From a virus: a stretch of DNA of 34,059 nt. The stretch is from the IMG/VR virus record IMGVR_UViG_3300046336_000017, positions 1 to 34,059 of that record, one strand, 5' to 3'. Below are positions 5,720-33,699 of the stretch, piece after piece (the first letter of the stretch is position 1; every line of letters starts with the position of its first letter). The notes under the pieces were generated by a model that saw only the letters and a list, made by a program, of their open reading frames with translations, was not told the DNA's origin and did no database searches. Position numbers and translations under genes: made by a program.

Positions 5720-5747
5720 ATCCCGCACTCCATCGTTTGCGCCTATT

Positions 5748-19538: not shown

Positions 19539-20308
19539 AAAATATCCCCTTCTACATATGAAGCGTAACTCATTGGAAACGCTTGCTTGACCTTATCAGC
19601 AATCAATCCAGCAAGCAAGCGAGTTTGTGATTGAGTGTGCGGGTCAAGTCGCATCTTTAGCATATTCATGAAAGCGTCCAAACTGCCGGACCAACGCCAC
19701 CGGGTCATATGGCACAACGGCAAAACCATGCGCGCCTCTTCTGGGGCTACTAAGTGCAATAGCGCGTCGTACTCATCCCCGGCAGTATGAACGGCCTCTA
19801 ACCATGCTAGGTTGGCGCGGTTTTGACCCCAGTTATCTAGATATCCACCCGCGCCCTGCTTTACATTATCCGCAATGCCACTCCACTGATCAGGCTTGAA
19901 GTAAACAGGTTCGCCCTTAATATAACGGCGGCTAACCTCCGACATGCGTAGGTATTCGTGCTTAACCATTTGACGCGCAACAAAAACAGGGGCATCAATA
20001 ACAAACGACAAAAAGCAATGACCAAACGGCGCGGCATGTGGTGCAGCGGTTCGCCACTTCCATAGGTTAGCGGGTGTTGGATTATCCAGAATATACAGAT
20101 ATTCCGACTTGGTCATGCCGCGCACAAGGTACTTGATCAGGTTTTTTTGCGCGTCAGTCAGTATCGGTTGATAACGTAATACGCCTTCAAGATAATCGTC
20201 ATACCATCCTTGAGGTTCAACGTCCGCGTCATTATCAAATGATACCTTTGCGGCCTTGACCACTTCTAGGTCATTGCCCATCACGTCAACTAGTTTTGCG
20301 GTTATCAT
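19535..20308 (-). CDS. thyX: Flavin-dependent thymidylate synthase
   Basis: 257 residues. Converts dUMP to dTMP using methylene-tetrahydrofolate, FAD and NADPH. Residues 112-129, 'RQMVKHEYLRMSEVSRRY', correspond to the ThyX signature RQ..RHR..S.NE.S.RY: the dUMP-binding Ser is kept (Ser126), but RHR is KHE (116-118). C-terminal 'APEEARMVLPLCHMTRWRW' and 'FMNMLKMRLDPHTQSQ' fit the second conserved half. GAGGA precedes ATG 20308. The altered motif may change flavin binding, so activity is not certain. Works in the same pathway as the dUTPase and reductase upstream. Confidence 0.9.
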   Translation of the reverse strand: MITAKLVDVMGNDLEVVKAAKVSFDNDADVEPQGWYDDYLEGVLRYQPILTDAQKNLIKYLVRGMTKSEYLYILDNPTPANLWKWRTAAPHAAPFGHCFLSFVIDAPVFVARQMVKHEYLRMSEVSRRYIKGEPVYFKPDQWSGIADNVKQGAGGYLDNWGQNRANLAWLEAVHTAGDEYDALLHLVAPEEARMVLPLCHMTRWRWSGSLDAFMNMLKMRLDPHTQSQTRLLAGLIADKVKQAFPMSYASYVEGDIL

Positions 20309-20311
20309 TTA

Positions 20312-20530
20312 TCATTCCTCAATAAGTGAAAGTAGGTTTTTAATTCCGCAAACTAATTCTTCGTTTATTGCTGTTAGTTTTCGCAATTCCATGAATTTAT
20401 CATTGTCGTTTTTGGGTAAGTTATTCAAATTATCACATAACCTGTTATTGATAGATTTTAGACGTTCAATTTCCATCTGTAGGTTTTTTATTTGTTCAAG
20501 CATTGCGTCGTGCATATCATCGTACATCAT
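20312..20530 (-). CDS. Small coiled-coil protein
   Basis: 72 residues, almost entirely heptad-like helix ('LEQIKNLQMEIERLKSINNR', then 'NNLPKNDNDKF', then another helix). A dimeric coiled coil is likely; function unknown. Starts with ATGATG overlapping the stop of the 19-codon ORF; RBS GGCGGTGA. Lower GC than neighbours. Confidence 0.55.
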   Translation of the reverse strand: MMYDDMHDAMLEQIKNLQMEIERLKSINNRLCDNLNNLPKNDNDKFMELRKLTAINEELVCGIKNLLSLIEE

Positions 20531-20586
20531 TCACCGCCTTTCGGGATAGCTGCGAGGATAGCGGGTGACGTCCTTGATAATTCCAT
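20527..20586 (-). CDS. Possible 19-residue micro-ORF
   Basis: ATG 20586 follows GAGGTAAATA and comes three bases after the previous gene's stop; its own stop overlaps the next gene's ATG. The peptide is 19 residues. It may be a leader that carries ribosomes to the coiled-coil gene rather than a functional protein. Confidence 0.35.
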   Translation of the reverse strand: MELSRTSPAILAAIPKGGE

Positions 20587-20589
20587 TAT

Positions 20590-20961
20590 TTACCTCATTC
20601 CACTTTCAAGCATCAAACTAGCCGCTTTCTTCATCCCCCGCGCTTCGGCATCCGCAATCATCCGATCAAGCGCGGCCTTGCTGTCGGCTGGGGTGAGGGC
20701 GCGGATTGCAAGCCATGTTCTGGAAGTCCAATCAATTGAAGTATTGCAATATGTTTTTGCCGCCACCTCATAAGCCGCAGCCGTTTCAGCTTGGGATCGT
20801 TCTAGGGCGGCAGATAGGGCGCGCATAACCTCTATTGATTTTCTCGCGCGGTTTACCAAGGTGAGGATGTGGCCGTTCGTGCTGTTTTTGAAAACCTCAC
20901 ACGCGGCATTTGTCCTCGAGATGTGGCGTTCAACTGCTTCCGGTGTGATGTCTATGGTCAT
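20590..20961 (-). CDS. Hypothetical protein
   Basis: 123 residues from ATG 20961, with AAGGA eight bases upstream (a reading to 21009 would overlap the upstream gene). Helical, 'VMRALSAALERSQAETAAAY', with a C-terminal 'ALTPADSKAALDRMIADAEA' followed by 'RGMKKAASL', a tail I associate with Ea22-like or other phage early proteins in alphaproteobacterial phages. No enzymatic motif. In the leftward operon ending at dnaN. Confidence 0.55.
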   Translation of the reverse strand: MTIDITPEAVERHISRTNAACEVFKNSTNGHILTLVNRARKSIEVMRALSAALERSQAETAAAYEVAAKTYCNTSIDWTSRTWLAIRALTPADSKAALDRMIADAEARGMKKAASLMLESGMR

Positions 20962-20989
20962 TTGCATTATCCTTGTGCGGTCGCCGCAC

Positions 20990-21451
20990 TCATTCTTGCA
21001 CCCAATCATCCGCAGCTATAATCCGCGCTTTCAAATCAGCAGGGCAATCCTTAATCAATGCGCCTGACTTCACTTTCGCATCAGCCTCGGCCTTTGCCGC
21101 GTCAAGGTGTTCCTGCGTCATAACCAAACGGGCGGCAGCATGATAACGAACAACGCCATTAACTCGGCATACAAATCCATTGTGAACCTTTTTCGGTGGA
21201 GTAGCGGGGTCGCGGTGTTCCGGTGGTTCATGTGGTGTGTCTGGAATGCCCGTTTCATGGCATTTCTCGCTGTAGCACTCTGGGTTCGGGTTTCCATTCT
21301 CATCAGTCCAAGGGGTTGCCAATGCCTGACCCACGCTAAAACCAATCACAATCAGCGCGCCAAGCCACATTAAAACCTTGCGTTCATGACGCGCTTGTTC
21401 GCCATGATCTCGGCGGCGGGTTTCGTAACGATCATCTGTCAGCTTATTCAT
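20990..21451 (-). CDS. Membrane-anchored or exported protein with four cysteines
   Basis: 153 residues. Basic cytoplasmic N-terminus, one hydrophobic segment at about 27-45 ending in 'VGQALA', so it is either a signal anchor or cleaved after Ala46. The outer part has Cys59, Cys64, Cys95 and Cys136, possibly two disulphides, and a Pro/His-rich linker ('IPDTPHEPPEHRDPATPPKK'). Function unknown. Overlaps the gene before by eight bases. Confidence 0.55.
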   Translation of the reverse strand: MNKLTDDRYETRRRDHGEQARHERKVLMWLGALIVIGFSVGQALATPWTDENGNPNPECYSEKCHETGIPDTPHEPPEHRDPATPPKKVHNGFVCRVNGVVRYHAAARLVMTQEHLDAAKAEADAKVKSGALIKDCPADLKARIIAADDWVQE

Positions 21452-21830
21452 TGTCGTATTCCTCTACATAAATGTTTTTCACGTCCGACACATACCAAAC
21501 GCCATCGCCGTTGTCAACAACTTTGCCGTTTGAATATGCCGTTAGTTTATCGCACAATCCAGCCGCATAAGCCATCTCGCACACGTCTGAATATCCATGA
21601 AATACACCAAGCGGCGGCTTAATGTCTTCTGGTTTGATCTGCGATGATGGTCTAAGACGTACAGCAAACCACTTAGGATATGATCGGCGGTTTTCCGTCA
21701 CTACAGCCGTAAATTCAGTGCCTTCGCGGTTATGAATTGCGCCGTATGGAATATAGCATTCCGACTGGTCTGGTAGTGTTCCAATCCAGCCATCGCCAGT
21801 GTCGCGGGATAGTGTTAGGGTTGTGATCAT
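21444..21830 (-). CDS. Hypothetical protein
   Basis: 128 residues from ATG 21830, with TTGGAG upstream. Beta-rich: 'GWIGTLPDQSECYIPYGAIH', 'KWFAVRLRPSSQ'. The sequence has the feel of an OB-like cold-shock domain but lacks its RNP motifs, so I do not claim it. First gene after the promoter at 21863-21891. Confidence 0.55.
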   Translation of the reverse strand: MITTLTLSRDTGDGWIGTLPDQSECYIPYGAIHNREGTEFTAVVTENRRSYPKWFAVRLRPSSQIKPEDIKPPLGVFHGYSDVCEMAYAAGLCDKLTAYSNGKVVDNGDGVWYVSDVKNIYVEEYDNE

Positions 21831-21851
21831 TTGTCATATCTCCAATAAATA

Positions 21852-21877
21852 AGCCTGCCCTATTTCTAAGGCAGGCT
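21852..21877 (-). terminator. Hairpin after the reductase gene
   Basis: Minus strand AGCCTGCC (21877-21870) pairs with GGCAGGCT (21859-21852) around a 10-base loop, followed by a T-rich but interrupted run. It would end the dut-nrdJ transcript. The -10 of the next promoter lies in its loop. Confidence 0.6.
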
Positions 21878-21891
21878 AGGTAGGTTGTCAA
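21863..21891 (-). promoter_or_regulatory. Promoter of the leftward operon 21830-18229
   Basis: TTGACA (21891-21886), 17-base spacer, TAGAAA (21868-21863). The spacer and -10 overlap the terminator hairpin 21852-21877, so the new transcript starts about at the hairpin's end. Confidence 0.6.
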
Positions 21892-21902
21892 GTGTTAGTT
21901 TT

Positions 21903-23681
21903 CTACTCGCAAGACCTGATCAACTGCCCGGTTTCAGGATCAACGCGCATCTCACATGCGCCGTAATCATGCTCTGGTTCCGGTTCTTTAACGCTCAACA
22001 CACTGCCAGTCACGTCATTGGGGCGGTATGTCGTGCAGCCCTTGCAACCCAACTCCCACGCCTGCAAATACACATTCTTAAAGTCATCGAATGAAATATC
22101 CTCGGGGCAGTTGATGGTTTTGCTGATAGAGCTATCAACCCAACGCTGAGCAGCAGCTTGCATACGTACGTGATCAATCGGCTTTAACGTTTGCGCAGTC
22201 ACAAAACTGGCTGGCAATGGTTCACCCGGTCTTGCGCGTTTCCACTTATCAACGGCATAATCGCGCACTGTTTCAGTTACCTTTGAACCGTCTTTCTGCA
22301 AAACCTTGCGATCATATTCAAGCGCAAAAATAGGCTCAATACCGCTTGATACGTTGCCAGCATAAAGCGAGATAGTCCCAGTTGGCGCAATCGAAGTCAA
22401 CAAAGCATTGCGAATGCCGCAAGTCTTAATCAAGTCGCGAATGTCTTGATCCATGCCGAGCATATTACCGCTGTCAAGATATTTATCAGCGTCAAACAGC
22501 GGAAACGCGCCTTTTTCAATAGCGAGATCAATGCTGGCAAGGTATGATTGACGCGCGACAAACTTCATAAGTTCGTCAATCCATTCCATGCCTTCATCGG
22601 ACCCATAAACAATGCCACCAAGCGCCATTGCATCCGCAACGCCTGTTACACCTAGTCCAATGCGCCGCTTGGCCTTGGCCTCGGCTTCCTGCTCGGGCAA
22701 TGGAAACCGAGATACGTCAACGACGTTATCCATCATGCGAACGGCAGTCCAAATCGCATCGCCTAGCATTTCCCAGTTGATTGAAAAATCATCATTCAAG
22801 AATGCCGGAATATTCATACTGCCAAGCAAGCAAGCACCATAGGGCGGCAATGGTTGCTCGCCGCACGGGTTAGTTGCCGCAATGGTTTCGCAGTATGACA
22901 GGTTATTCGCCGTGTTAATCCGGTCAATAAAGATCACGCCGGGTTCTGCATAAGCATATGTCGCTTGCGTGATATGATCCCACAACCCCCGCGCTGAAAC
23001 AGTGCGATAAACCTTTCCACCAAACACAAGATCAAACTTCGCGTTATCCTTGACCGCCTGCATGAAATCATCCGTCACCAATACAGACAAGTTAAACATG
23101 CGCAGTCGGTTAGGGTCGCGCTTGGCGTCGATAAACTTGAAAATGTCGGGATGATCAACTCTCATGGTTGCCATCATTGCGCCACGTCTAACGCCCGCTG
23201 ACATGATGGTTTTGCACATTGCATCCCACACGTCCATGAACGACAATGGCCCGCTAGCGGTTGATGCAACACCCTTTACAGGCGCATCGACAGGCCTCAA
23301 CGTGCTGAAGTCATAGCCAATACCTCCGCCTGCTTGCATGGTAATGGCGGCTTCTTTCAACGCGTCCATAATGCCTGACAAGCTATCTTGCACCGTACCC
23401 ATGACAAAACAGTTGAATAGCGTCACGTTCCGATCAGTACCAGAGCCTGCATTAATCCTACCAGCCGGGATAAACTGAAAACGCTCTAAGACTGAATAGA
23501 ACTTATCAGCCCATAGTTGACGATTTGTTTCAGGTTCTGCCAATGCCCACGCAACACGTCGCCAAGTGTCTTGCACGGTGTTGTCGATTGGCGTTCCGTC
23601 TTGTTCTTTTAGACGGTATTTCATATCCCAGATTTGTTCCGCCATTGGGTTTTTGAATGGGTTGTAGTTTGCAATTGTCAT
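21903..23681 (-). CDS. nrdJ: Ribonucleoside-diphosphate/triphosphate reductase, adenosylcobalamin-dependent (class II)
   Basis: 592 residues. Makes deoxyribonucleotides from ribonucleotides using a cobalamin-generated thiyl radical. Active-site triad N-x-C-x-E at Asn271, Cys273, Glu275 ('NPCGEQPLPPYGACLLGSMN'), redox Cys91 ('LFNCFVMG'), 'PTGTISLYAGNVSSGIEPIF' and 'KGCTTYRPND' near the end, and C-terminal cysteines ('YGACEMR', 'IRSCE'). No ATP-cone is seen at the N-terminus. Oxygen-independent class, so it serves in aerobic and anaerobic cells but needs host B12. Start overlaps dut stop (ATGA). Confidence 0.95.
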   Translation of the reverse strand: MTIANYNPFKNPMAEQIWDMKYRLKEQDGTPIDNTVQDTWRRVAWALAEPETNRQLWADKFYSVLERFQFIPAGRINAGSGTDRNVTLFNCFVMGTVQDSLSGIMDALKEAAITMQAGGGIGYDFSTLRPVDAPVKGVASTASGPLSFMDVWDAMCKTIMSAGVRRGAMMATMRVDHPDIFKFIDAKRDPNRLRMFNLSVLVTDDFMQAVKDNAKFDLVFGGKVYRTVSARGLWDHITQATYAYAEPGVIFIDRINTANNLSYCETIAATNPCGEQPLPPYGACLLGSMNIPAFLNDDFSINWEMLGDAIWTAVRMMDNVVDVSRFPLPEQEAEAKAKRRIGLGVTGVADAMALGGIVYGSDEGMEWIDELMKFVARQSYLASIDLAIEKGAFPLFDADKYLDSGNMLGMDQDIRDLIKTCGIRNALLTSIAPTGTISLYAGNVSSGIEPIFALEYDRKVLQKDGSKVTETVRDYAVDKWKRARPGEPLPASFVTAQTLKPIDHVRMQAAAQRWVDSSISKTINCPEDISFDDFKNVYLQAWELGCKGCTTYRPNDVTGSVLSVKEPEPEHDYGACEMRVDPETGQLIRSCE

Positions 23682-24106
23682 TTCCCTGTTGATCCCATTC
23701 CGTTCGCGCCGCGTTTAGTTTCGCTCAATTCGTCCACCTCAATAAACTCCACTTGATCAACACGCCGCAACATAGCTTGTGCAACACGCTCACCGACTTC
23801 CGGCATCTCTGGATATTCGTCATCGCGGATTAATTTTACCACCACTTCGCCGCGATAATCGCTGTCAACAATGCCAACCGAGTTGGCTAGTCTGGTGTGA
23901 TGATTAAACCCATGCCCGCTACGGCTGTAAACCTCTAGGACGTGACCTTTTGGAATGTCGAAAGCTAGCCCCGTGTTGTAAAACGCAATACCCGGCCCTA
24001 CTTCAGTTCGATCAATCGCCACAAGGTCAAAACATGCCGCGCCGTCTGATTGGTATTTCGGAATAACAGCGCGCGGATCAAGCCGCTTTACTTTCAATTG
24101 CATCAT
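23678..24106 (-). CDS. dut: dUTP diphosphatase (dUTPase)
   Basis: 142 residues from ATG 24106, trimeric-type length. Removes dUTP and supplies dUMP to ThyX. Five motifs: 21-30 'DGAACFDLVA', 61-66 'SRSGHG', 78-91 'GIVDSDYRGEVVVK' with catalytic Asp81, 105-113 'GERVAQAML', and 132-141 'RGANGMGSTG'. Motif 2 has Arg-Ser-Gly instead of Arg-Ser-Ser. A longer open frame to 24385 is out of keeping with the family. Co-transcribed with nrdJ from 24134-24162. Confidence 0.93.
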   Translation of the reverse strand: MMQLKVKRLDPRAVIPKYQSDGAACFDLVAIDRTEVGPGIAFYNTGLAFDIPKGHVLEVYSRSGHGFNHHTRLANSVGIVDSDYRGEVVVKLIRDDEYPEMPEVGERVAQAMLRRVDQVEFIEVDELSETKRGANGMGSTGK

Positions 24107-24133
24107 ATAGTGTCCATATTGGGGTGAATTGTC

Positions 24134-24162
24134 ATTATGTAGTGTTTTGGGGGCGGTGTCAA
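24134..24162 (-). promoter_or_regulatory. Promoter of dut-nrdJ
   Basis: TTGACA (24162-24157), 17-base spacer, CATAAT (24139-24134). The TGA stop of the upstream gene lies within the -35. Start site would be about 20 bases before ATG 24106. Confidence 0.7.
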
Positions 24163-24695
24163 TCTGTGGGCGGTGCATATGTGATCTGTTCAGACTTGAT
24201 TGTTGCCAATGACATTCTTGATCGGCTAATCTTAATAGCAAAATCAGGCCGGATGCGTTCCAATGTATCAACAGCCGCCACAACCCGCCGATAGTCGTGA
24301 ACCATGCGCCTCGCCCAGCATTCCATGCGATAAGCAATAGCGGCGATAGCTTCCTCCTGTGTAAGCTTTGCCCACGACATGCCACTTCCGTTCAAAACAA
24401 AGCGGCCCTTACTTCCGAAAGTGTTCCAGACGTATCCCGGCGCGCCTTGTTCCCATGGCTGTTTTGTGGCGTCGCGGTAAGCATGTTGCGCAACCCATGC
24501 CCCTTTTTGCGTTAACTTAACAACTGGATGTGCTGTCAAAACAATGCAGTCCGGGTATCCATCACAATCATTTTCCCAACTTGCGCGCCACCGATGCAAT
24601 TCAGGTGCATCTCCAAGATCTTCATGCCCATAGTATCTGATGTCAGTTGGGTAAACCTTTGTCAGTGTATCGCATTCACTAAAATCCCAATTCAC
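24159..24695 (-). CDS. Hypothetical protein
   Basis: 178 residues from GTG 24695, overlapping the previous stop (GTGA). Contains 'LHRWRASWENDCDGYPDCIV', 'AYRDATKQPWEQGAPGYVWN', 'FGSKGRFVLNGSGMSWAKL'. Trp-rich and soluble. I do not recognise a family. Its stop lies within the -35 of the dut promoter. Confidence 0.6.
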   Translation of the reverse strand: MNWDFSECDTLTKVYPTDIRYYGHEDLGDAPELHRWRASWENDCDGYPDCIVLTAHPVVKLTQKGAWVAQHAYRDATKQPWEQGAPGYVWNTFGSKGRFVLNGSGMSWAKLTQEEAIAAIAYRMECWARRMVHDYRRVVAAVDTLERIRPDFAIKISRSRMSLATIKSEQITYAPPTD

Positions 24696-24937
24696 GCCAT
24701 CACCCCCCTATAGCTAAACTTGCCACCATCAATGCGCGCCTGACACAGTACAATCAGGCCCAACTCGTGATAAGCCCATGCCTGCTTGCCGATCTTGGTA
24801 TTGCCGATCAAATCAGCCCAATCGCCTTGATGATATTCAATCACCGTTCCGCGCGGGTTTTGTCGAATGCCGTCAATCCCCATCACCGCATTCTTAAACG
24901 CGCGGGACTTTTCTTTGTGTGTGATGATGCTGATCAT
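24692..24937 (-). CDS. Hypothetical protein
   Basis: 81 residues from ATG 24937, preceded by AGAGGTGA and coupled to the upstream stop (ATGA). 'AFKNAVMGIDGIRQNPRGTV', 'KQAWAYHELGLIVLCQARID'. No domain recognised. A longer reading to 25033 would duplicate coding already used by gene 24934-25092. Confidence 0.6.
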   Translation of the reverse strand: MISIITHKEKSRAFKNAVMGIDGIRQNPRGTVIEYHQGDWADLIGNTKIGKQAWAYHELGLIVLCQARIDGGKFSYRGVMA

Positions 24938-25092
24938 TTCGTCACCTCTGGATAAAAACCGTGGCAATCTTCGCCGCCGGGATATGCGGAATATGCTTGA
25001 TATGTAGCGTGGCCCGGTATTGTGCGGCGGCACTTATCGGCTAGTAAGCACGGTGTTGCGCATCTGGCGTAGTCGTATGGTAGTGGGGTCAT
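24934..25092 (-). CDS. Small cysteine-rich protein (52 aa)
   Basis: 52 residues with four cysteines at 11, 15, 21 and 43 ('YARCATPCLLADKC' and 'GGEDCHGFYP'). The cluster C-x3-C-x5-C with a distant Cys could bind zinc. Compact, Pro/Gly-rich. I believe I have seen relatives among small alphaproteobacterial phage proteins, but cannot name one. Coupled at both ends: its ATG follows the upstream TAA directly and its stop overlaps the next ATG. Confidence 0.6.
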   Translation of the reverse strand: MTPLPYDYARCATPCLLADKCRRTIPGHATYQAYSAYPGGEDCHGFYPEVTK

Positions 25093-25326
25093 TTATTCAA
25101 ACTCCTCATATGCGGCCTCAATAAGTGCCGACTTGGTTTTTCCAGTTAGTCCGACGATCTTATGGCCGAAAATCTCGATGTAGTCAATCTCAATCTCATC
25201 TATTTCAGTCCAAGGCGGTTCGTCTGTGTATCCCCCGGCGCTGTAATATCCACCAGATTCAATATGGGCGCGGGCATGTACTGTAACTTCAATAGTGAAC
25301 GTGCGATCTTCTGTGTGGCGTGGCAT
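25093..25326 (-). CDS. Hypothetical acidic protein
   Basis: 77 residues from ATG 25326 (ATG 25329 also possible), with GGGAG just upstream. Strongly acidic middle ('PPWTEIDEIEIDYIEIFG') and beta-strand N-terminus ('RTFTIEVTVHARAHIESG'). No domain recognised. First gene of a leftward operon of four, with promoter 25352-25380. Confidence 0.55.
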   Translation of the reverse strand: MPRHTEDRTFTIEVTVHARAHIESGGYYSAGGYTDEPPWTEIDEIEIDYIEIFGHKIVGLTGKTKSALIEAAYEEFE

Positions 25327-25351
25327 CATGTACTCCCTTGTTTCTACACAA

Positions 25352-25380
25352 CCCATAACACCTCACAAACAGCCACGCAA
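25352..25380 (-). promoter_or_regulatory. Leftward promoter of operon 25326-24159
   Basis: TTGCGT (25380-25375), 17 bases, TATGGG (25357-25352). Back-to-back with the rightward promoter at 25395; both have the same -10 context TTATGGGTT. Confidence 0.5.
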
Positions 25381-25394: not shown

Positions 25395-25423
25395 TTGACA
25401 CGGGGTTTTCGTTCGTTTATGGG
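25395..25423 (+). promoter_or_regulatory. Rightward promoter of the ParB/PAPS-reductase cassette
   Basis: TTGACA (25395-25400), 17-base spacer, TATGGG (25418-25423), 24 bases before ATG 25448. The RBS AGAGGAG follows. Confidence 0.65.
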
Positions 25424-25447
25424 TTAGGGACACAAGAGGAGTTTAGC

Positions 25448-26152
25448 ATGTGTAAAATTACTGACATTCAGTCCAAAACTGAGGCGCTCGATAAGATCAT
25501 GAACGCTGCAAAGTCTATGGATGGTGCATCATTACCTGAAATGGTCGATTTCCTCAATAAAGCTAGGGGAATGCTTCACCAAGTTAGCCCGTTTAAAAAT
25601 GAACCTATTGACTTTGTGAAGTGGGTCATCACGGATCAAGTACACGCCAATGACTACAACCCCAACAGCGTAGCGCCGCCTGAAATGATCCTTTTGGAGC
25701 ACTCCATTGAGCATGACGGCTACACGCAACCAGTAGTAGCTTGGCCTGATAGTGATAGCACTTTTGAAGTTGTGGACGGGTTTCACCGTACAACCGTAGC
25801 AAAGCGCTCCGACATGGTTCGAACAAGGCTGCAAGGATACATGCCACTTGTTACTATTCAGAACGATAATGCGGATCGTAACGACCGAATTGCCGCAACT
25901 ATTAGGCACAACAGGGCGCGCGGTAAGCACAATGTAAACTCAATGTCAGACATTGTAATTGAGTTGAAAAAGCGAAACTGGTCTGATGACCGTGTAGCCC
26001 GCGAATTGGGTATGGATGCGGATGAAGTTTTGCGCCTATGCCAAGTGTCTGGGCTTGCTGAGGTGTTTGCCGATGAGGAATTCAGCAAATCTTGGGATGC
26101 TGGAATTTTTGCAGAAGAAGATTTAGAGGCATTGTCAGAGGATGATATTTAA
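25448..26152 (+). CDS. ParB-like nuclease domain protein, IbrB-like
   Basis: 234 residues from ATG 25448, RBS AGAGGAG. Central ParB N-terminal-type domain: 'ANDYNPNSVAPPEM' at 67-80, 'HDGYTQPVVAWP' at 89-100, 'EVVDGFHRTTVAKR' at 107-120, then 'IRHNRARGKHN'. The C-terminus has an HTH-like 'SDDRVARELGMDADEVLRLC'. This pairs with the PAPS-reductase family gene two downstream, the combination known as IbrB/IbrA in prophages, described as co-activators of immunoglobulin-binding genes in E. coli. The biochemical role is not established. TAATG overlap with the next gene. Confidence 0.8.
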   Translation: MCKITDIQSKTEALDKIMNAAKSMDGASLPEMVDFLNKARGMLHQVSPFKNEPIDFVKWVITDQVHANDYNPNSVAPPEMILLEHSIEHDGYTQPVVAWPDSDSTFEVVDGFHRTTVAKRSDMVRTRLQGYMPLVTIQNDNADRNDRIAATIRHNRARGKHNVNSMSDIVIELKKRNWSDDRVARELGMDADEVLRLCQVSGLAEVFADEEFSKSWDAGIFAEEDLEALSEDDI

Positions 26153-26574
26153 TGGAAAGAATTTACCACACTTGGGATAAGTGGGAATGCTACCCAGCGG
26201 GTTTTTACGCTGAAAAGCCGCCAAAAGGAATGGACAACGACGAATGCGAGTTGGCTTATCGTGACTTTTTATCAGACCTAACGGCTTTCGCATCTGGACT
26301 TGAGGGTGTGACAAAGGAATGGGTTAATTCTTGCGAACATTACCTGACAAACGAAAGCATGAACAGGATCGCATGGCTAGGGCAAGCTGCAATGTGCTAT
26401 GTAAACAATATTCCATCTAGGTTTAGGGGTGGTTACAATCTTCTGTCTGATGATCAAAAAGATGCGGCGGATAATCTCGCATTAGAATACCTAAACAAGT
26501 GGCGCGCGCAATACGGACAGCCGCCTCTAGATACTACTGCCGTTAAATCACGCACGGAGGCTAATCTTTACTGA
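26152..26574 (+). CDS. Unknown protein encoded between IbrB-like and IbrA-like genes
   Basis: 140 residues; overlaps both neighbours by one base (TAATG and TGATG), so it is obligatorily co-translated. Aromatic-rich: 'YHTWDKWECYPAGFYAEKPP', 'MNRIAWLGQAAMCYVNNIPS', 'SDDQKDAADNLALEYLNKW'. Helical C-terminus. I recognise no family. Its fixed place between two functionally linked genes marks it as a component of the same system. Confidence 0.65.
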   Translation: MERIYHTWDKWECYPAGFYAEKPPKGMDNDECELAYRDFLSDLTAFASGLEGVTKEWVNSCEHYLTNESMNRIAWLGQAAMCYVNNIPSRFRGGYNLLSDDQKDAADNLALEYLNKWRAQYGQPPLDTTAVKSRTEANLY

Positions 26575-27803
26575 TGCAACATAAAATTTACCGGGAACAA
26601 AATGTTTTGGATGCGGCGCGTGATCGTATTTCATACACTTTTGACAAATTTGAGCGTATCTTTATCAGTTTTTCAGGTGGGAAGGACAGTAGCGTCATGT
26701 TTCATCTAGTAATGGATGAAGCAATCAAGCGTAACCGCCGTGTGGCCGTTATGATTATTGACTTTGAGGCTCAATATAAAAAGACTTCTGATCATGTGGA
26801 GGAAATGCTTGATCGCTACAAAGGCAACATTGAGCCATTTTGGTTTTGTTTACCAATTAAGCTGCGTAACGCCGTGTCAACATTTGAGCCAGTTTGGTGC
26901 GCTTGGGATCCTGATCGAAAGGATGATTGGGTAAGACCTATGCCTAAGCATCGCGCAGTTGTTAACATGGATAATGCGCCTGACTGGTTTCAGCCACGCA
27001 TGGAGTTTGAAGAGTTTATCATCCTTTTTGCTGACTGGTATTCCGGCGAACAAGAGACAGCAGGTTTCATTGGTATCAGAGCCGATGAAAGCCTAAACCG
27101 TTTCAGGACGATATGCACATTCAAAAAGGAAACGTATGAAGGCAAGCGTTGGACAACTAAGGTTACTGACAAGGCATATAACATTTACCCTATATATGAT
27201 TGGAAAACACAAGACATTTGGAAGTATCACGCAGCGTTCCCAGACCGTGAGCATAACACTATATATGACCTTATGCACCAAGCTGGTGTTAAGCCATCTC
27301 AGCAACGGCTTTGCCAGCCGTATGGCGACGATCAGAGGCGCGGACTATGGCTTTATCATATCCTAGAGCCAGAAACGTGGTATCGTGTCGTGGCCCGTGT
27401 AAATGGCGCGAATAGTGGGGCTTTGTACATCAACGAGACAGGAAACATCACAGGGTATAGCAAGATCACACTACCAGAGGGGCATACTTACAAATCCTTC
27501 TGCAATCTTTTGCTTGCAACCATGCCTAAGATCACGCGGGATCACTATGTGGAGAGGTTTCGCGTCTTTATGAAGGGATGGAAAGGCCGTGGATATATGG
27601 ACGGAATGCCTGACTTTGCACCCAAGGTTTTAGAAGATAAACAATGGGCACCATCTTGGCGTAGGTTGTGCAAGGTCTTGCTACGCAACGATTGGTGGTG
27701 CAAGGGTCTTGGTATGCAGCAACCAAAAAGCGTAGCCTATGGAAAATATCTCGACATGAAGAAGGCAAAAAAAGATGCCGCAATGATGTCAACAAGTCTT
27801 TAG
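26574..27803 (+). CDS. PAPS reductase / ATP-pyrophosphatase family protein, IbrA-like (DUF3440)
   Basis: 409 residues. PP-loop 'SFSGGKDSSVMFHL' at about 33-46 binds ATP and adenylates a substrate. 'GFIGIRADESLNRFRTI' and the following 'KAYNIYPIYDWKTQDIWKYH' are the second block of the family, and the DUF3440-like C-terminus has 'GMPDFAPKVLEDKQWAPSWR'. Relatives include CysH, DndC and IbrA. Here there is no visible sulfur carrier or desulfurase, so DNA modification, tRNA modification or regulation are all open. Followed by a terminator. Confidence 0.85.
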   Translation: MQHKIYREQNVLDAARDRISYTFDKFERIFISFSGGKDSSVMFHLVMDEAIKRNRRVAVMIIDFEAQYKKTSDHVEEMLDRYKGNIEPFWFCLPIKLRNAVSTFEPVWCAWDPDRKDDWVRPMPKHRAVVNMDNAPDWFQPRMEFEEFIILFADWYSGEQETAGFIGIRADESLNRFRTICTFKKETYEGKRWTTKVTDKAYNIYPIYDWKTQDIWKYHAAFPDREHNTIYDLMHQAGVKPSQQRLCQPYGDDQRRGLWLYHILEPETWYRVVARVNGANSGALYINETGNITGYSKITLPEGHTYKSFCNLLLATMPKITRDHYVERFRVFMKGWKGRGYMDGMPDFAPKVLEDKQWAPSWRRLCKVLLRNDWWCKGLGMQQPKSVAYGKYLDMKKAKKDAAMMSTSL

Positions 27804-27813
27804 GGTAACTCAA

Positions 27814-27850
27814 CCCCGCGCATCATTTAGTTGTTGCGCGGGGTGTTTTT
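27814..27850 (+). terminator. Terminator closing the cassette
   Basis: CCCCGCGCA (27814-27822) pairs perfectly with TGCGCGGGG (27835-27843), followed by TGTTTTT. It lies ten bases beyond the stop of the PAPS-reductase gene. Confidence 0.9.
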
Positions 27851-27896: not shown

Positions 27897-28076
27897 ATGG
27901 AAAAAGCAAAAGCATATGACAACCGCATTGACCGCAAAGCATACATTCTTGATACAGGCCGCCCGTTTGTCGCAGTGAAACCAAAGGGATTTTTTAACCC
28001 AGTAATCGGCCACTATGAAAGCATGAAGTCTGCAAAAGCAGCCGCAAAACGTTGGAATGAAAAGGGGTGCAAATGA
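27897..28076 (+). CDS. Small hypothetical basic protein
   Basis: 59 residues from ATG 27897, with AAGGA eight bases upstream. Basic, 'VAVKPKGFFNPVIGHYESMK' and 'SAKAAAKRWNEKG'. No domain recognised. It follows the cassette terminator and is coupled to the next ORF (ATGA). No promoter of its own is obvious; read-through may express it. Confidence 0.55.
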   Translation: MEKAKAYDNRIDRKAYILDTGRPFVAVKPKGFFNPVIGHYESMKSAKAAAKRWNEKGCK

Positions 28077-28189
28077 AAGAAGTTTTGATATTTTGGGTTG
28101 TCTTAGGTATCCCCATGTTGCTAGTTATTAAATGGATTGCAATTAGGCAACAAAAGCAGCATGATAAATGGAATAAACTCAGTAAGTAA
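28073..28189 (+). CDS. Small membrane peptide (38 aa)
   Basis: 38 residues: one hydrophobic segment (about 4-23, 'VLIFWVVLGIPMLLVIKWIA') and a basic polar tail. Starts with an ATGA overlap with the upstream stop; terminator follows at 28200. Likely inner-membrane, N-out or N-in not decidable. Confidence 0.5.
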   Translation: MKEVLIFWVVLGIPMLLVIKWIAIRQQKQHDKWNKLSK

Positions 28190-28199
28190 CATTATGTTA

Positions 28200-28230
28200 A
28201 ACCCGCGCCTTTCAAAAGCGCGGGTTTTTT
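28200..28230 (+). terminator. Terminator after small rightward genes
   Basis: AACCCGCGC (28200-28208) pairs with GCGCGGGTT (28218-28226), followed by a six-T run to 28230. Its loop holds the stop codon of the leftward gene 28212-28457. Confidence 0.85.
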
Positions 28231-28457
28231 ACATCAGCGCGCATAGGCCATAGCCTCTTGATATGCGCCTCAACCATTAACCGCATGGCCTGTGGAATAC
28301 GTCCTAGCATGGCCTTGCGCCTATCAGGCGTATCACCTTCACGGATGATCTGCAAAGCCGCCTTGTAGCACTCCCTGTCAACCATAGGCCGGATATCAGG
28401 CTCAAGCGTTGCCTTCCCCATCATGACATCGCGCGCACGTTCACTTGGCTTGAGCAT
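28212..28457 (-). CDS. Hypothetical helical protein
   Basis: 81 residues. 'PDIRPMVDRECYKAALQIIR' and 'RRKAMLGRIPQAMRLMVEAH' give two amphipathic helices. Overlaps the VRR-NUC gene by 17 bases. Stop lies in the loop of the rightward terminator. I do not recognise a named family. Confidence 0.6.
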   Translation of the reverse strand: MLKPSERARDVMMGKATLEPDIRPMVDRECYKAALQIIREGDTPDRRKAMLGRIPQAMRLMVEAHIKRLWPMRADVKNPRF

Positions 28458-28848
28458 CCCAATACCTCACCGCTGTAATAGCCGCCTCATAGCCTAAAGC
28501 AATACAAGCATAAGCCCCCGCCGCCTGTGCCGCGCGTAGGTACTCAACCTGTCCCGGTTGCCAAGTACTTTTCGTGTGGTCTTTCCTCTTGATCTCCATC
28601 ACCAACGGCACACTGGCCGGGATAATCACATCAACTGTGCCAGCCGTCATACCCTCGGCCTTTTGCCACTTGGCTTGTCCGATAGTCCTAACGCCTTCAT
28701 TGCGCGGATGAAACGCCAAGACGCCCCACGTCTTTGGATACTGCGCGCGGATAAATGCAAAAAGCGTAACTTGTGCTGCATTTTCAACAGCACATTTACC
28801 GCGAAACGTGGGGTCGCCCCATAATGGTATATCAGGTGGCAGGATCAA
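28441..28848 (-). CDS. VRR-NUC domain nuclease
   Basis: 135 residues from TTG 28848, chosen for the AAGGA about eight bases upstream. PD-(D/E)XK-like fold: 'HPRNEGVRTIGQAKWQKAEG', then 'MTAGTVDVIIP' with catalytic Asp, and 'VMEIKRKDHTKSTWQPGQVE' with E-x-K, then 'AQAAGAYACIALGYEAAI'. VRR-NUC enzymes of phages are often encoded next to an SF2 helicase, as here; the pair may process branched or single-stranded junctions. Confidence 0.85.
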   Translation of the reverse strand: MILPPDIPLWGDPTFRGKCAVENAAQVTLFAFIRAQYPKTWGVLAFHPRNEGVRTIGQAKWQKAEGMTAGTVDVIIPASVPLVMEIKRKDHTKSTWQPGQVEYLRAAQAAGAYACIALGYEAAITAVRYWDAQAK

Positions 28849-30622
28849 TGTCGGCTTCCTTATTAAACGTGATGAACTTGAAAAAACCGCTATCTTCCTT
28901 CTTATAGCTGATCGTTTTAGGCTTGTCTTTAATGCCGTTAGTCGCGGCCATAAGTAACTCATAATCGCGCCACTGATATTGACTATCAGGCTTAGAACTG
29001 GTCCAAGTGGCAAATGATCTGTAAGGCGTCTGCCAATCTATTTTCCATTGTTCCCGCCCGCGCTGGCTAATCGTTTTAGATACAGTCCAATCCGTCACAA
29101 TGTCAGTTTGTAGTTTTGTCGGGTCGCGCTTTAGTTGCTTGAACTCCATGCGCAACTTTTCGTTCGGGTCAACTAATTCCGCCTTGCACTCGCCACAATA
29201 CCGAGCCGCTATGTCATTGCCGTGTTGGCATTGGGGGCATTCCTTAAACGTCCACCTGTAGGAACACTGATTATAATCACCCGTCTTTCGGTCACGGATT
29301 AAACACTGGCACCTGCGCCCGCTGTGCGCCGGAATAGGGCCGTGGTCTGTTTCAATACGCAATCCCCTTAGATCAACAAAATATCCTTCCTTGTCGATCT
29401 CATATCCATCTGGGTTTTTTCGCGCCTTAAACAGGTTTTCACCGTCACACAACGGACATTGGCAATCAATCGGCTGGCTTTCACCTACCGACATTCCAAC
29501 CCTAATTTCAGGCGCGAATACGTCACCATCTGGAAAATGGCGTTCAATGTTTTCGGAATAGTCCAGAAACAAACAATCCGTTTTATCATCACACAATCGC
29601 AAGCCACGGCCAATGATCTGTTGCAATAGGCCGGGGCTTTCAGTCAATCGAAGCATTGCCACAATATCAACGTGAGGCGCGTCAAAGCCTGTGGTAAACA
29701 CCCCAACGCTTACAAGGTACTTAATCTTTCCAGCCTTGAACCGCGCAACAATAGACTTGCGCATATCCTTGTCAGTTTCACCGTCCACAACGGCGCTAAT
29801 CTCTGGCGGCAAGCTGGCGTAGGCTTCTTTGGCGTGTTGAACTGTAGCGCAGAACAACAGCGCACCTTTACGATCACTGGCCTGCGCCACAATATCCGCA
29901 ACGATTTCAGACGTTAGCCTGCCATGCCCATTGTATGCACGATCAACCGCATCCTTCTTAAATGACTGACCGTTCAATTCAGCCGTGTTATAGTGTCCTG
30001 ATCCAATGCGACCAATAGTCACGGGCGTTAGATATCCAAGATCAAGCAAGTATCTTGCCGTTACCCGATAAACCAGCTTAGTGAAGTATGGGTCTTTTGT
30101 TTGAAAGTCAGGAACTGGTTTATCTTTTTCGTCAATTTTGTAAATATATCCCGTGCCTAATCTATAAGGCGTAGCAGTTAATCCAACCACTCTCACGTTA
30201 GGGTTTTTAGACCTAATAGTGTCGATTATATGAATAATGGTCGGGGTAATCCCGTGGCATTCATCAACGATTATAAGACCAAATTTATCGCCAAATCTGG
30301 ATAATTTGTTCTTTACAGAAACAGGCGTACCAAAAACAACGGGAAACCTTGTGCTAATTGATCCTACAGCCGCGCTAAAAATAGATGCGCGGTTGCCAGT
30401 TGCTTCATATTTCTCATGGTTTTGTTTTACCAATTCCTCGCCGGGTTGTAATACCAAGACGGATTTACCGTTGCTAATATCATGGATTGTTTTAGCTAAT
30501 TCGGCAATGATATGGCTTTTACCTGCACCAGTTGCGGCCTCAACTACGCAAGGATCACGGGACAAGCGAATGTGTTGCACGACAGCATCGTGCGCGGCCT
30601 GCTGATATGGGCGCAATGTCAT
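28832..30622 (-). CDS. SF2 DEAD/DEAH-type helicase with zinc-ribbon C-terminus
   Basis: 596 residues from ATG 30622, which overlaps the upstream stop (ATGA); ATG 30637 lies within that gene. Walker A 'TGAGKS' 31-36, 'VDECH' 119-123, 'GLTATPYR' 147-154, motif V-VI 'GVFTTGFDAPHVDIVAMLRL', 'QIIGRGLRL'. Uses ATP to unwind DNA (UvrB/RecG/T5-like helicase group). The last 200 residues have Cys clusters ('CQCPLC', 'CQCLIRD', 'CPQCQHG', 'YCGECKAEL') suggesting two zinc ribbons for DNA contact. Probably works with the VRR-NUC product. Confidence 0.9.
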   Translation of the reverse strand: MTLRPYQQAAHDAVVQHIRLSRDPCVVEAATGAGKSHIIAELAKTIHDISNGKSVLVLQPGEELVKQNHEKYEATGNRASIFSAAVGSISTRFPVVFGTPVSVKNKLSRFGDKFGLIIVDECHGITPTIIHIIDTIRSKNPNVRVVGLTATPYRLGTGYIYKIDEKDKPVPDFQTKDPYFTKLVYRVTARYLLDLGYLTPVTIGRIGSGHYNTAELNGQSFKKDAVDRAYNGHGRLTSEIVADIVAQASDRKGALLFCATVQHAKEAYASLPPEISAVVDGETDKDMRKSIVARFKAGKIKYLVSVGVFTTGFDAPHVDIVAMLRLTESPGLLQQIIGRGLRLCDDKTDCLFLDYSENIERHFPDGDVFAPEIRVGMSVGESQPIDCQCPLCDGENLFKARKNPDGYEIDKEGYFVDLRGLRIETDHGPIPAHSGRRCQCLIRDRKTGDYNQCSYRWTFKECPQCQHGNDIAARYCGECKAELVDPNEKLRMEFKQLKRDPTKLQTDIVTDWTVSKTISQRGREQWKIDWQTPYRSFATWTSSKPDSQYQWRDYELLMAATNGIKDKPKTISYKKEDSGFFKFITFNKEADIDPAT

Positions 30623-31284
30623 CTTACTAAATACCAACCTTTAAATGATTTTCTTACTCCGTTTACTATTCTTCCAACGCTTCCACCTGTTAGGTTATAT
30701 TTATCTCTTAAACCAATAGAAGTACCTATAAAAGAACCATGATTGATATTCTCAAAGTGATATATATTCTTATCAGAGCTTGGGTTATCTATACCTTTCA
30801 ACTTTCCAGTTCTAGATACTGAAATCTTATCCTTTTGATCTTTACTCATGACCCTACCCTTATTTGCATTAGATATGGCTTGATTATGTTCTTTACTGTT
30901 TGTTCTTCCAACTCTAGAAATTTTTAGTGCAGATATTATATCACTACTTACTAAAATTAGTTTCTTTGATTTACTCATTTTTGCTTTAGATATTTCACTA
31001 TGCTTTAGTCCACTAACACCATCACCGCCATCCGTATGGTTACACAGATTTTCCCTACCATATAATTTAATTAATGCACGTTCAAAAGAAAATGCACAAT
31101 TTTCATTGTTAAATGAAACTACTATATGTGATGTGTACCCATGTTTATTAACAACCCTATCCCAATATGAATTTCTATCTGATCTACTATAAGCCCTTTT
31201 ACCGCTACCCTTTACTACATAGAAAACAGTCCCATCCGTAGATTTACGGTGGACATATACATAGAATTTCTTTTCAAAAGTCAT
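30619..31284 (-). CDS. GIY-YIG homing endonuclease with NUMOD-type DNA-binding region
   Basis: 221 residues. N-terminal GIY-YIG domain: 'FYVYVHRKSTDGTVFYVVKG' with Arg in 'KRAYSRSDR', Glu in 'FSFERALIKLYGRENLCN', Asn at the end of that segment. The canonical Gly of YIG/YVGKG is Val here (FYVVKG). Then 'GLKHSEISKAKMSKSKK' and repeats of NUMOD3 type, and a C-terminal winged part 'GGSVGRIVNGVRKSFKGWYL'. Strikingly AT-rich compared with flanks, a sign of recent transfer. Its stop overlaps the helicase start. Confidence 0.85.
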   Translation of the reverse strand: MTFEKKFYVYVHRKSTDGTVFYVVKGSGKRAYSRSDRNSYWDRVVNKHGYTSHIVVSFNNENCAFSFERALIKLYGRENLCNHTDGGDGVSGLKHSEISKAKMSKSKKLILVSSDIISALKISRVGRTNSKEHNQAISNANKGRVMSKDQKDKISVSRTGKLKGIDNPSSDKNIYHFENINHGSFIGTSIGLRDKYNLTGGSVGRIVNGVRKSFKGWYLVR

Positions 31285-31311
31285 AAGCTACCCTCTAGCT
31301 GATCCTATAAA

Positions 31312-31367
31312 ATGCAGGGCAGGCAGTAGGATTGTCTGCGGTTCGTCTGGCCGGACTAGCCCTGCAT
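31312..31367 (-). other. Three-way-junction-like structured element before the homing endonuclease gene
   Basis: ATGCAGGGC (31312-31320) and GCCCTGCAT (31359-31367) are a perfect 9-bp pair enclosing hairpin GCAG/CTGC (31323-31326/31336-31339) and hairpin GTTCG/CGGAC (31341-31345/31352-31356). On the minus strand it is followed by TTTTAT, so it could terminate the exonuclease transcript; it also would be the 5' end of the transcript from 31372-31400. Confidence 0.5.
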
Positions 31368-31371
31368 GTTT

Positions 31372-31400
31372 AATATAGGTGTTTATGTAAGGTAAGTCAA
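31372..31400 (-). promoter_or_regulatory. Promoter of homing endonuclease and helicase genes
   Basis: TTGACT (31400-31395), 17-base spacer, TATATT (31377-31372). Start near 31365 places the structured element 31312-31367 at the 5' end. The -35 overlaps the last codons of the exonuclease gene. Confidence 0.65.
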
Positions 31401-32263
31401 GACAAACGCCAATATTCGCTAGACTTACCAGTATAAGGAGAAAGATCAGCTTTTGGCAATAGGTCTTTGATTGCCTTCGCATAGCTTATAGCGCCCGCTT
31501 TTTGCACTTTGGTTAGTTTCCGCCCGCATATCAACGCATCCTTAAATCCTGAAGCCTCTTGCATGGCGTCCATGATTTCATCAATACGCTCTTTGGCGCG
31601 GTCCTGAGCCTCTTTCATATCGTCATATTCGGCAATCAATTGCGAAAGTCGTGGCGTGTTAATCTCTCGGCGCTTGGGTTCAAGGTGTTCTGGATTGTCC
31701 AGCTCGGATAGATACAGGTCATAAAACGCGCGCAATTCCCACAAGTAACAATCTAACCAAGCCTGATCTTGAGCAACGTGTTCAACGTATTCGCCATGCG
31801 GCGTCCATTGCGCAAAGATAGCTTTAGTGCGTCCAGATGCAAGCATCTCAATCTGAATTTGACCGTAATAATGTGTTTGATCTAACCGCTTAAACGGAAC
31901 GGGTTCTGGTTTGTTTCGGATACCATAAGGGCATTTGAACTCTAGGATTGTGTCATCGCCAATCAATCCATCAGGACTTGCACCTAGCCAATCTTCATAC
32001 GGAAAAAACCCGCATTTCTTTACATCAAGACCAGTCGATAATTCAAACAAGCCAATCGCATTTGCTTCATTCGCGCGACCCCATGCCATAGCCGGATTAT
32101 CAGGGAACTCACTTTCTACACCGTGATAATCACGTACCATAGCGCGCAATACATCATCCGCCGTGCGATAAGGATCATCGCCCAAGATTGCAGCAACGTT
32201 TGATCCTGTGACCCGGCCCTTGCGTTGGTTAAACCATGCGGGGGAACGTTGTTCTATTTCCAT
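31397..32263 (-). CDS. YqaJ-type viral recombinase / lambda-exonuclease family nuclease
   Basis: 288 residues. N-terminal 'QRSPAWFNQRKGRVTGSNVA' motif, Glu66 ('WGRANEANAI'), 'GASPDGLIGDDTILEFKCPY' with Asp98, Glu108 and Lys110 making the metal site. Such 5'-3' dsDNA exonucleases generate the single-stranded ends used by annealing proteins. C-terminal coiled coil ('YDDMKEAQDRAKERIDEIMD'). Upstream genes encode an SSB-like protein and a Sak4-like ATPase, so a complete recombination set is present. Promoter 32299-32327. Confidence 0.9.
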   Translation of the reverse strand: MEIEQRSPAWFNQRKGRVTGSNVAAILGDDPYRTADDVLRAMVRDYHGVESEFPDNPAMAWGRANEANAIGLFELSTGLDVKKCGFFPYEDWLGASPDGLIGDDTILEFKCPYGIRNKPEPVPFKRLDQTHYYGQIQIEMLASGRTKAIFAQWTPHGEYVEHVAQDQAWLDCYLWELRAFYDLYLSELDNPEHLEPKRREINTPRLSQLIAEYDDMKEAQDRAKERIDEIMDAMQEASGFKDALICGRKLTKVQKAGAISYAKAIKDLLPKADLSPYTGKSSEYWRLS

Positions 32264-32290
32264 ATCATCAATCCTATCTATACAATATAA

Positions 32291-32312
32291 GAGCGGCCAT
32301 TATAGCCGCCCT
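32291..32312 (-). other. Hairpin with the -10 box in its loop
   Basis: GGGCGGC and GCCGCTC, on the minus strand, pair over seven positions (one G-U) around TATAATG. The -10 TATAAT of the promoter 32299-32327 is exactly the loop. Could act as weak terminator for the SSB gene and as promoter for the exonuclease. Confidence 0.45.
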
Positions 32313-32327
32313 TGTGTTATCTGTCTA
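32299..32327 (-). promoter_or_regulatory. Promoter of the exonuclease gene
   Basis: TAGACA (32327-32322), 17-base spacer, TATAAT (32304-32299, perfect). Located between the SSB stop at 32330 and the exonuclease ATG at 32263. Confidence 0.75.
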
Positions 32328-32329
32328 TA

Positions 32330-32908
32330 TCAGAAAGGTATCTCTGAATCATCATAGCGTGACGAACCACCAACGCTAGACTTTTGATCCTTTGGCGCGG
32401 CCTTTGTTACCTTGCTGGCATCAACACTCACAGCTTTGCTTGATGGGCTTACAGCCTGCACCCAATTGCCTTGCTTGCCGTCCAAATCCCACAAGCCCAA
32501 TCGAATAACCATTGGCTTATTGGTCAAGTGCATCGCAAAGTCTTCGTCGCTAGGCTTGCGTTGCAGTTTCATCAATCCACCGCCGCAATTCGCGTCAATT
32601 GCCGCAAGCATCCGCTTAGCAGTATCGCCCTTTTTCTTAGCCTTGGCCGGGTCAGTATTTCGCGCGGCGTCACCCTCTGGGTACATCTTTTGAAAAATCT
32701 TGCGGCCCTGATATTCTTCCGGCGCTAGGATATTCCAGCGCGCTGAAATATGCTCCTCACCCCCTTGGAACGATTGCCACTTGCATTCATCAATCGAAGC
32801 CATAACCGAACTGCCGTCTGGCAGAATAAGATTACCGCCCCCGCTGGGGGCCTCATATTCCTTTTCAGTGCTTACCTGATCGCCGTCGCTAAGATCCCAG
32901 AAACTCAT
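32330..32908 (-). CDS. Single-stranded DNA-binding protein (DUF669-like)
   Basis: 192 residues. Middle part has 'ARWNILAPEEYQGRKIFQKM' and 'MVIRLGLWDLDGKQGNWVQA', an OB-fold-like arrangement seen in phage DUF669 proteins. The C-terminus is a Ser/Lys linker ending in acidic 'YDDSEIPF', closely resembling the DDDIPF tip by which bacterial SSB recruits partner proteins. GGAGTTA precedes ATG 32908 and overlaps the Sak4 stop (ATGA). Likely partner of the Sak4-like ATPase. Confidence 0.8.
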   Translation of the reverse strand: MSFWDLSDGDQVSTEKEYEAPSGGGNLILPDGSSVMASIDECKWQSFQGGEEHISARWNILAPEEYQGRKIFQKMYPEGDAARNTDPAKAKKKGDTAKRMLAAIDANCGGGLMKLQRKPSDEDFAMHLTNKPMVIRLGLWDLDGKQGNWVQAVSPSSKAVSVDASKVTKAAPKDQKSSVGGSSRYDDSEIPF

Positions 32909-33699
32909 TTTGTAACTCCATCTTTTGTTTCAATTGCCGGAATAAAAGGCACAAGCCCAGACAATGGGTTTAAACCCAATTCAACAGTGATTGCATCCGT
33001 AATTCCAAAACGGTTTTTTGACACATTGCTAGCCGTGGCAAAGCAAATCAACTCACGCGCACCTGTTGACATTGCTTTCTTGACTTCGCCTTCCGCCCCC
33101 TTGGCAAAGGTCTTCAGCTTGATAAATCCAACCAAATCAACGTCGTTGATATACGGATCAGCGCAGTTGACTTTGTTATTCGCCGTGATCTTCATCACAT
33201 ACTTGGAATAACCCGCCATATCAGGCGGTTCAATCTTATCAACGTCCGCATGGGCCAAGAAAACAATATTCATGCCTTTCTTGTCCTGCAAAACCTGACA
33301 AGCCTTGCGCAACCTTTGGTGCATCCCGAACAACACCTGAAAGCCTGCGCCATAGCCGCCCGCACATTGCGCTAGGTTGTTTTTACCGTCAACTTTCATG
33401 ATTTCTTCTGTAAACAGAACATCAAGTTTTGACACGCTATCAATGACAAGCGTTTCAAATTCATGATCTTCTTTGATCAATGCCGTAATCTGATCCCACA
33501 AGTCTTGTGCGGATTTAAGCAATGGAAAAGCCTTTGGTCGCTTTTCACTCGGCACAGCCTTCAATCCATCCTCGGCACGGATGAAAATAGGCTTTGGGAA
33601 TGTCGCGGCAAGGCTTGTTTTGCCGTTGCCCGCATCGCCAAAGATAGTCACAAAACCCGGACCGTCGACGGGTGTTTCAATGTCGTCTAAACTAGCCAT
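32905..33699 (-). CDS. Sak4-like RecA-fold ATPase (AAA_24)
   Basis: 264 residues from ATG 33699, where AAAGGAG lies about six bases upstream (starts at 33729 and 33753 are possible but lack an RBS). Walker A 'GDAGNGKTS' 21-29, Walker B 'TLVIDSVSKL' with Asp87. Short RecA-like annealing proteins of the Sak4 type promote single-strand annealing with SSB; the neighbour encodes an SSB-like protein. Also related to phage recombinase-type ATPases, so 'AAA_24 ATPase' is the safe call. Confidence 0.85.
   Translation of the reverse strand: MASLDDIETPVDGPGFVTIFGDAGNGKTSLAATFPKPIFIRAEDGLKAVPSEKRPKAFPLLKSAQDLWDQITALIKEDHEFETLVIDSVSKLDVLFTEEIMKVDGKNNLAQCAGGYGAGFQVLFGMHQRLRKACQVLQDKKGMNIVFLAHADVDKIEPPDMAGYSKYVMKITANNKVNCADPYINDVDLVGFIKLKTFAKGAEGEVKKAMSTGARELICFATASNVSKNRFGITDAITVELGLNPLSGLVPFIPAIETKDGVTK

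Follow-up and report, generated by a model that had tools for sequence, protein, structure and literature searches.

An IbrAB-type phage gene cassette with a third protein outside the known family libraries

The 34,059-base window (positions 1 to 34,059 of the IMG/VR virus record IMGVR_UViG_3300046336_000017) carries, among its open reading frames, a plus-strand cassette of an ibrB-like, a middle (M) and an ibrA-like gene, whose three proteins very probably form one functional complex. IbrA and IbrB themselves are already known, their chemistry is not, and the fixed third subunit is absent from the family libraries and from the papers found. Judged by its sequence, the cassette appears to be a variant of the IbrAB kind and neither CysH nor Dnd. 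Many phages carry genes of the IbrA type, and genes with a PAPS-reductase domain are regularly reported as sulfur-metabolism AMGs. In several large lineages, IbrA travels with a ParB-like protein and an obligatory third protein that lies outside all family libraries searched. The outcome is a three-subunit hypothesis, with a likely contact between M and the C-terminal domain of IbrA and with cultured phages as test material; a common phage gene pair of unexplained function would then be a three-part machine, now directly testable. The cassette has the following features.

25395..25423, plus strand: putative promoter, placed by gene orientation; TTGACA at 25395-25400, 17-nt spacer, weak TATGGG at 25418-25423
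25434..25441, plus strand: ribosome-binding site AAGAGGAG, 5' of the first ATG, recognised from the sequence
25448..26152, plus strand: ibrB-like gene, 234 aa, ATG start; ParB-CTPase-like domain and HTH; phrog_2159 match, E 1.7e-67
26152..26574, plus strand: middle gene (M), 140 aa, ATG start; all-helical; defined by alignments, an AF2 model and adjacency to the ibr genes
26320-26388, plus strand: conserved M motif W57..SCEHYLTNxxMNRIAWLGQA, from alignments
26574..27803, plus strand: ibrA-like gene, 409 aa, ATG start; PP-loop ATP pyrophosphatase domain and DUF3440; PAPS_reduct E 1.9e-14, DUF3440 E 2.5e-32, phrog_2302 E 3.4e-82
27312..27314, plus strand: Cys247 codon, in RLCQPYGDDQ of IbrA; near-invariant outside the A-B-M-CTD lineage
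27537..27755, plus strand: IbrA C-terminal domain, residues ~322-394; encoded separately, 3' of M, in one lineage; co-varies with M
27813..27850, plus strand: intrinsic terminator with a GC-rich stem of 10 bp and a T-run behind it; folding energy -23.7 kcal/mol, z -5.0

The initial annotation described a three-gene cassette with one-base overlaps, oriented against its neighbours, and the coordinates, the junctions and the strands of the flanking genes all bear this out. At the junctions TAATG (ibrB/M) and TGATG (M/ibrA), one base belongs both to the stop codon of one gene and to the ATG of the next, and the flanking genes at 18229-25356 and 28212-34042 run leftward, opposite to the cassette. 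Since many intact homologues exist for all three frames, chance ORFs are excluded. The cassette was also said to have its own terminator and its own promoter. The former stands on its folding energy and z score; this strong terminator is missing from the terminator scan because the loop limit of that scan is 8 nt. The promoter is a weaker case. Gene orientation implies one, plausibly located in the 91-nt divergent gap 5' of the cassette, where the -35 box TTGACA is perfect; the -10 box at 17-nt spacing matches at 3/6 positions, which explains why the putative promoter is missing from the consensus promoter scan. Two further small plus-strand ORFs 3' of the terminator (27897-28076 and ~28074-28189) extend the rightward island slightly beyond the cassette itself. 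Within 27897-28229, these two ORFs are followed by another hairpin, likewise GC-rich and with a T-run (AACCCGCGC..GCGCGGGTTTTTT).

The window derives from a tailed phage, with rightward genes for major head, neck, tape-measure, tail-fibre and endolysin proteins. The cassette sits between two leftward blocks, one containing clamp, thymidylate synthase, ribonucleotide reductase and dUTPase genes and the other containing helicase, homing-endonuclease-like, RecE-like, SSB, Sak4 and primase genes. Its neighbours are replication and recombination genes, with no defence-gene neighbourhood around it. The homing-endonuclease-like gene at 30619-31284 has the helicase gene on one side and the RecE-like gene on the other. 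Scans of the window for Rfam families and tRNAs gave no match, and no near-identical DNA was found in phage records.

The linkage of M to the ibr genes was assessed in 306 fetched loci containing 251 middle genes (210 distinct M ORF sequences); from each scan the best 80 were taken and some contigs overlap, which introduces a sampling bias, and the tallies count loci, not independent events. When the middle-gene sequence was the only query, each of the 125 IMG/VR loci fetched had ibrA as well as ibrB next to M, so the co-occurrence of the middle gene with its two flanking genes, proposed earlier as a check, was borne out. In 247/247 cases in which the sequence continues, the next ibr gene 3' of M, on the same strand and within 900 bases, encodes either IbrA or its C-terminal domain alone, the three remaining cases being contig or locus ends. 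This adjacency is seen in several gene orders: B-M-A (165), A-B-M-CTD (45), M-A-B (24) and rarer forms. The stand-alone C-terminal-domain gene, which corresponds to profile positions ~322-394 of IbrA, was seen only together with M. Moreover, 60 ORFs are ibrB-M fusions, which place M at the C-terminal side of IbrB, with at least six changes between fused and split states on the tree. In a quick tree of 124 IbrA rows, the A-B-M-CTD rows form a single clade with full support, the IbrA of the window falls in a 35-row B-M-A clade, and the presence of M changes at least seven times. Loci of the A-B-M-CTD type (L124, L128, L130 and ~45 further loci) encode a full-length IbrA with Ala in place of Cys247 and a separate C-terminal-domain gene after M. 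The IbrA proteins of L124, L128 and L130, the three that were aligned, have an extra Cys near residue 92 (CCLPITLPC).

In a diverse sample of IbrA loci, 28/75 are without M, and therefore M is obligate in several lineages and not in all IbrAB. The whole records behind loci without a nearby M were searched in two rounds, one of them without a positive control, and 44 of the 47 records contain no M. The remaining three have an M match: L082 and L103, in which the operon is split by contig ends, and L124, a known A-B-M-CTD member. In L082 and L103, ibrA lies at one contig end and a fused ibrB-M gene at the other, as in circularly permuted or circular genomes cut within the operon. A divergent M concealed in the A-B loci was found neither by profile at maximum sensitivity nor in whole records. 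About 15 A-B loci of one clade have a different small protein (~125 aa) encoded directly 5' of ibrA (the ORF just 5' of ibrA in L109, L110, L111, L112, L113, L114, L131, L189, L193, L194, L202, L205 and L223). This protein matches phrog_26647 in the two members tested, and its being a hidden M homologue was ruled out (hhalign probability 0.1). The distribution is suggestive of M and the phrog_26647-type protein being interchangeable accessory subunits. The suggestion that M may be an essential subunit holds in part: adjacency, fusions, retention across gene orders and co-variation strongly support M as a true subunit, and the 28 loci without M limit the word essential to those lineages in which it occurs.

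The co-variation concerns the C-terminal domain of IbrA. In a mirror-tree comparison, M distances follow those of this domain (r 0.79, partial 0.63, bootstrap 0.56-0.71), with partial values of -0.13 for IbrB, 0.09 for the IbrA N-domain and -0.05 for its mid-part. In sliding windows, the correlation with M peaks at the IbrA C-terminus in close and distant subsets alike. This holds even though no other part of ibrA lies at a greater distance from M in the DNA. Together with the fixed adjacency and the occurrence of the stand-alone domain only with M, these data, in which the distance correlation is an indirect indicator, point to a likely contact between M and the IbrA C-terminal domain.

The middle protein was considered unrecognised in the initial annotation, and indeed searches of Pfam, PHROGs, NCBIfam and PADLOC with E values up to 1 gave no matching family; no paper on it was found in the literature. 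The AF2 model is all-helical (pLDDT 92.7) and has no clear solved match among PDB folds (Foldseek best E 0.48, VIA best Z 3.7). The only significant match in a BFVD fold search is A0A649V0K8 (116 aa), which has the same length as the relative in phage XCL1123 and is probably that very protein. A PDB sequence search with all three cassette proteins gave chance matches only. In alignments, residues E12, N71, A74 and G77 of M are invariant among distant members, and R3, H6, W57, S60, E62 and W75 are nearly so. A degenerate scan of IMG/VR yielded at least 556 confirmed middle-gene stretches. Elsewhere, M was found in 6 of ~85,000 prokaryote species genomes, all of these being MAG contigs, in 6/50,697 phage records representing five phages, and in 0/72,556 plasmids when one distant member served as query. 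From these comparisons, the middle protein appears to be a large family new to these libraries and common in uncultured phages. The cultured phages with the cassette are the Mycobacterium phages Gaia, in which M is gp106, and Nebkiss (M. smegmatis mc2 155 is the host of both), Pseudomonas phage Amjad_SA, Pseudoalteromonas phage XCL1123 and Microcystis phage Mwe-JY13. In the deposited record of the latter (5576-6001 of locus L127), the middle protein is labelled ParB/sulfiredoxin, a label that suits the adjoining ibrB instead.

IbrA has the PAPS_reduct and DUF3440 domains of Pfam, the latter at 112.5 bits against a cut-off of 25. The PP-loop SGGKDS occupies residues 34-39 (26673-26690), and S[GA]GKDS is present in 286/295 relatives. 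IbrA shares its PP-loop fold with the CysH PAPS reductase. However, the catalytic C-terminal motif of CysH (EC-G-[LI]-H) occurs in 0/295 IbrA, and the CysH-type equivalogs are missed at 27-30 bits against cut-offs of 154-254, for example 29.6 against 254.2 for the NCBIfam PAPS-reductase equivalog and 27.3 against 165.1 for the cysH subfamily equivalog. A sulfate-reducing CysH is therefore rejected. The initial annotation also pointed to DndC. Here kinship at the superfamily level stands and membership does not: IbrA scores 27 bits against the cut-off of 290.4 for DndC (NCBIfam TIGR03183), and PADLOC gives only weak DndC/BrxP similarity. Sulfur transfer through Cys247 could be a candidate role for IbrA. 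This residue is near-invariant, but it is Ala in 49/50 IbrA of the A-B-M-CTD lineage, and the sulfur-linked part of the reading is thereby weakened and not universal.

IbrB is recognised by its phrog_2159 profile match and by adjoining IbrA in the gene cluster; against Pfam ParB_N it scores 18.5 bits, below the gathering score of 26.3. A model of the natural IbrB-M fusion of locus L057 matches Noc, KorB and ParB structures in Foldseek (E ~1e-5), with weaker matches to sulfiredoxin and free serine kinase. The former matches indicate that IbrB consists of a ParB-type NTP domain and an HTH. It resembles KorB, Noc and ParB in this NTP-binding domain and HTH fold. In contrast to them, it has a DGFHR motif (25775-25789 in the window), which is family-specific and present in 292/295 IbrB, and its chain ends soon after the HTH, at the end where many relatives have M. 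No ParA partner gene was found among the replication-region ORFs scanned.

The closest known system is the IbrA/IbrB pair (COG3969/DUF3440 and a ParB-like protein; ibrAB of E. coli ECOR-9 and ybdNM of K-12), which likewise combines PP-loop and DUF3440 with a ParB-like domain in adjacent genes. The cassette differs in its reversed order (B-M-A) and in the third gene in between; E. coli phage PhiR5_2 has the A-B order, and no M was found in its record. A ParB-superfamily protein beside a modifying enzyme is also found in DNA-modification systems, namely DndB/DndC and SspE/SspD (PMC10853773) and DpdB/DpdA (PMC12839542). As in Dnd/Ssp phosphorothioation (PMC10853773), the cassette joins a ParB-superfamily protein and a PP-loop enzyme from the superfamily of PAPS reductases; it differs in that IbrA falls far below the DndC cut-off, and DndD, DndE and cysteine desulfurase were not seen among the 25 commonest neighbour families. 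Dpd, in which the ParB-like ATPase DpdB accompanies the TGT DpdA, offers a parallel in that an enzyme which modifies DNA is assisted by a ParB-like NTPase (PMC12839542), but no TGT was seen among the window genes scanned and the enzyme superfamily differs.

Our best explanation overall, to which we give about as much credence as doubt, is a three-subunit clamp-adaptor-enzyme machine that would modify phage DNA or a nucleotide. IbrB, with its NTP domain and HTH, would be an NTP-binding clamp of the ParB/KorB type that is loaded on DNA, and IbrA would be a PP-loop ATP pyrophosphatase activating its substrate by adenylation. M would be a small helical adaptor docking on the IbrA C-terminal domain and on the C-terminal side of IbrB, and would bring the enzyme to the clamped DNA. 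While the phage replicates, the machine would then chemically modify its DNA or a nucleotide, probably as a protection from host nucleases; DNA as the substrate and protection as the purpose are the least certain parts. For modification of DNA or a nucleotide as such, our doubt slightly outweighs our belief. Phage DNA or its nucleotides would be the likeliest substrate, given a clamp subunit with an HTH, the location among replication genes and the parallels to DndB/DndC, SspE/SspD and DpdB/DpdA. Early phage modules hold many unrelated genes, and therefore the context is weak evidence for a DNA substrate. The model of the IbrB-M fusion has a pTM of 0.52, so the domain packing is uncertain. It is a tentative and rather doubtful extension that, beside Dnd/Ssp and Dpd, hundreds of uncultured phages carry a further, phage-borne ParB and PP-loop nucleic-acid modification machinery, with a helical adaptor not seen before that links clamp and enzyme, and with a new DNA or nucleotide modification.

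An unlikely alternative function is transcription control, in which IbrB would act as a CTP-gated clamp like KorB or VirB, spreading on DNA and displacing silencers with IbrA and M as partners, and its true role would be to activate the prophage eib genes. In the original 2002 report on IbrAB, the phenotype was reportedly such an activation of prophage eib genes. The match of IbrB to the KorB and Noc structures, with ParB-CTPase domain and HTH, agrees with this, as do the existence of ParB-like CTP-dependent regulators (VirB and KorB; PMC10653881, PMC11790492) and the description of IbrA/IbrB as co-activators of prophage gene expression (PMC4490671). However, it leaves unexplained why M has to be accompanied by the conserved PP-loop enzyme and the C-terminal domain of this enzyme, and the cassette is located in replication modules. 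The location in replication modules, with no defence-gene neighbourhood, and the weak PADLOC similarity likewise count against a machine for counter-defence or superinfection, whose targets would be nucleotides, tRNA or DNA of the host or of a rival and not the phage's own DNA. We assign this a low probability, even though roles as effectors of conflict systems, degrading NTPs or nicking, have been discussed for ParB-superfamily proteins (PMC10853773, PMC5512222) and M is phage-borne, given its near absence from the species genomes and its absence from the plasmids.

Two further readings fare much worse. The PAPS_reduct domain and the reports of phage PAPS_reduct genes as AMGs (e.g. PMC10434257) might suggest that IbrA serves as a PAPS reductase, a cysH AMG by which the phage boosts the sulfate assimilation of its host; given the missing catalytic motif, the missed equivalog cut-offs and the fixed ParB-like and M partners, which are unexpected for CysH, we find this highly improbable. 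That M is an independent passenger sitting by chance between two Ibr genes is scarcely credible: the diverse IbrA loci without M would fit, but the ibr genes present at every M-selected locus, the adjacency kept through at least three gene orders, the ibrB-M fusions and the co-variation with the IbrA C-terminal domain effectively refute it.

Finally, in Fusobacterium phage phiFN37 (locus L133, 9754-11039), a second ParB-like gene lies directly before a queuine tRNA-ribosyltransferase gene, 3 kb from IbrAB. This is possibly a DpdB/DpdA-like pair in an IbrAB-bearing phage.
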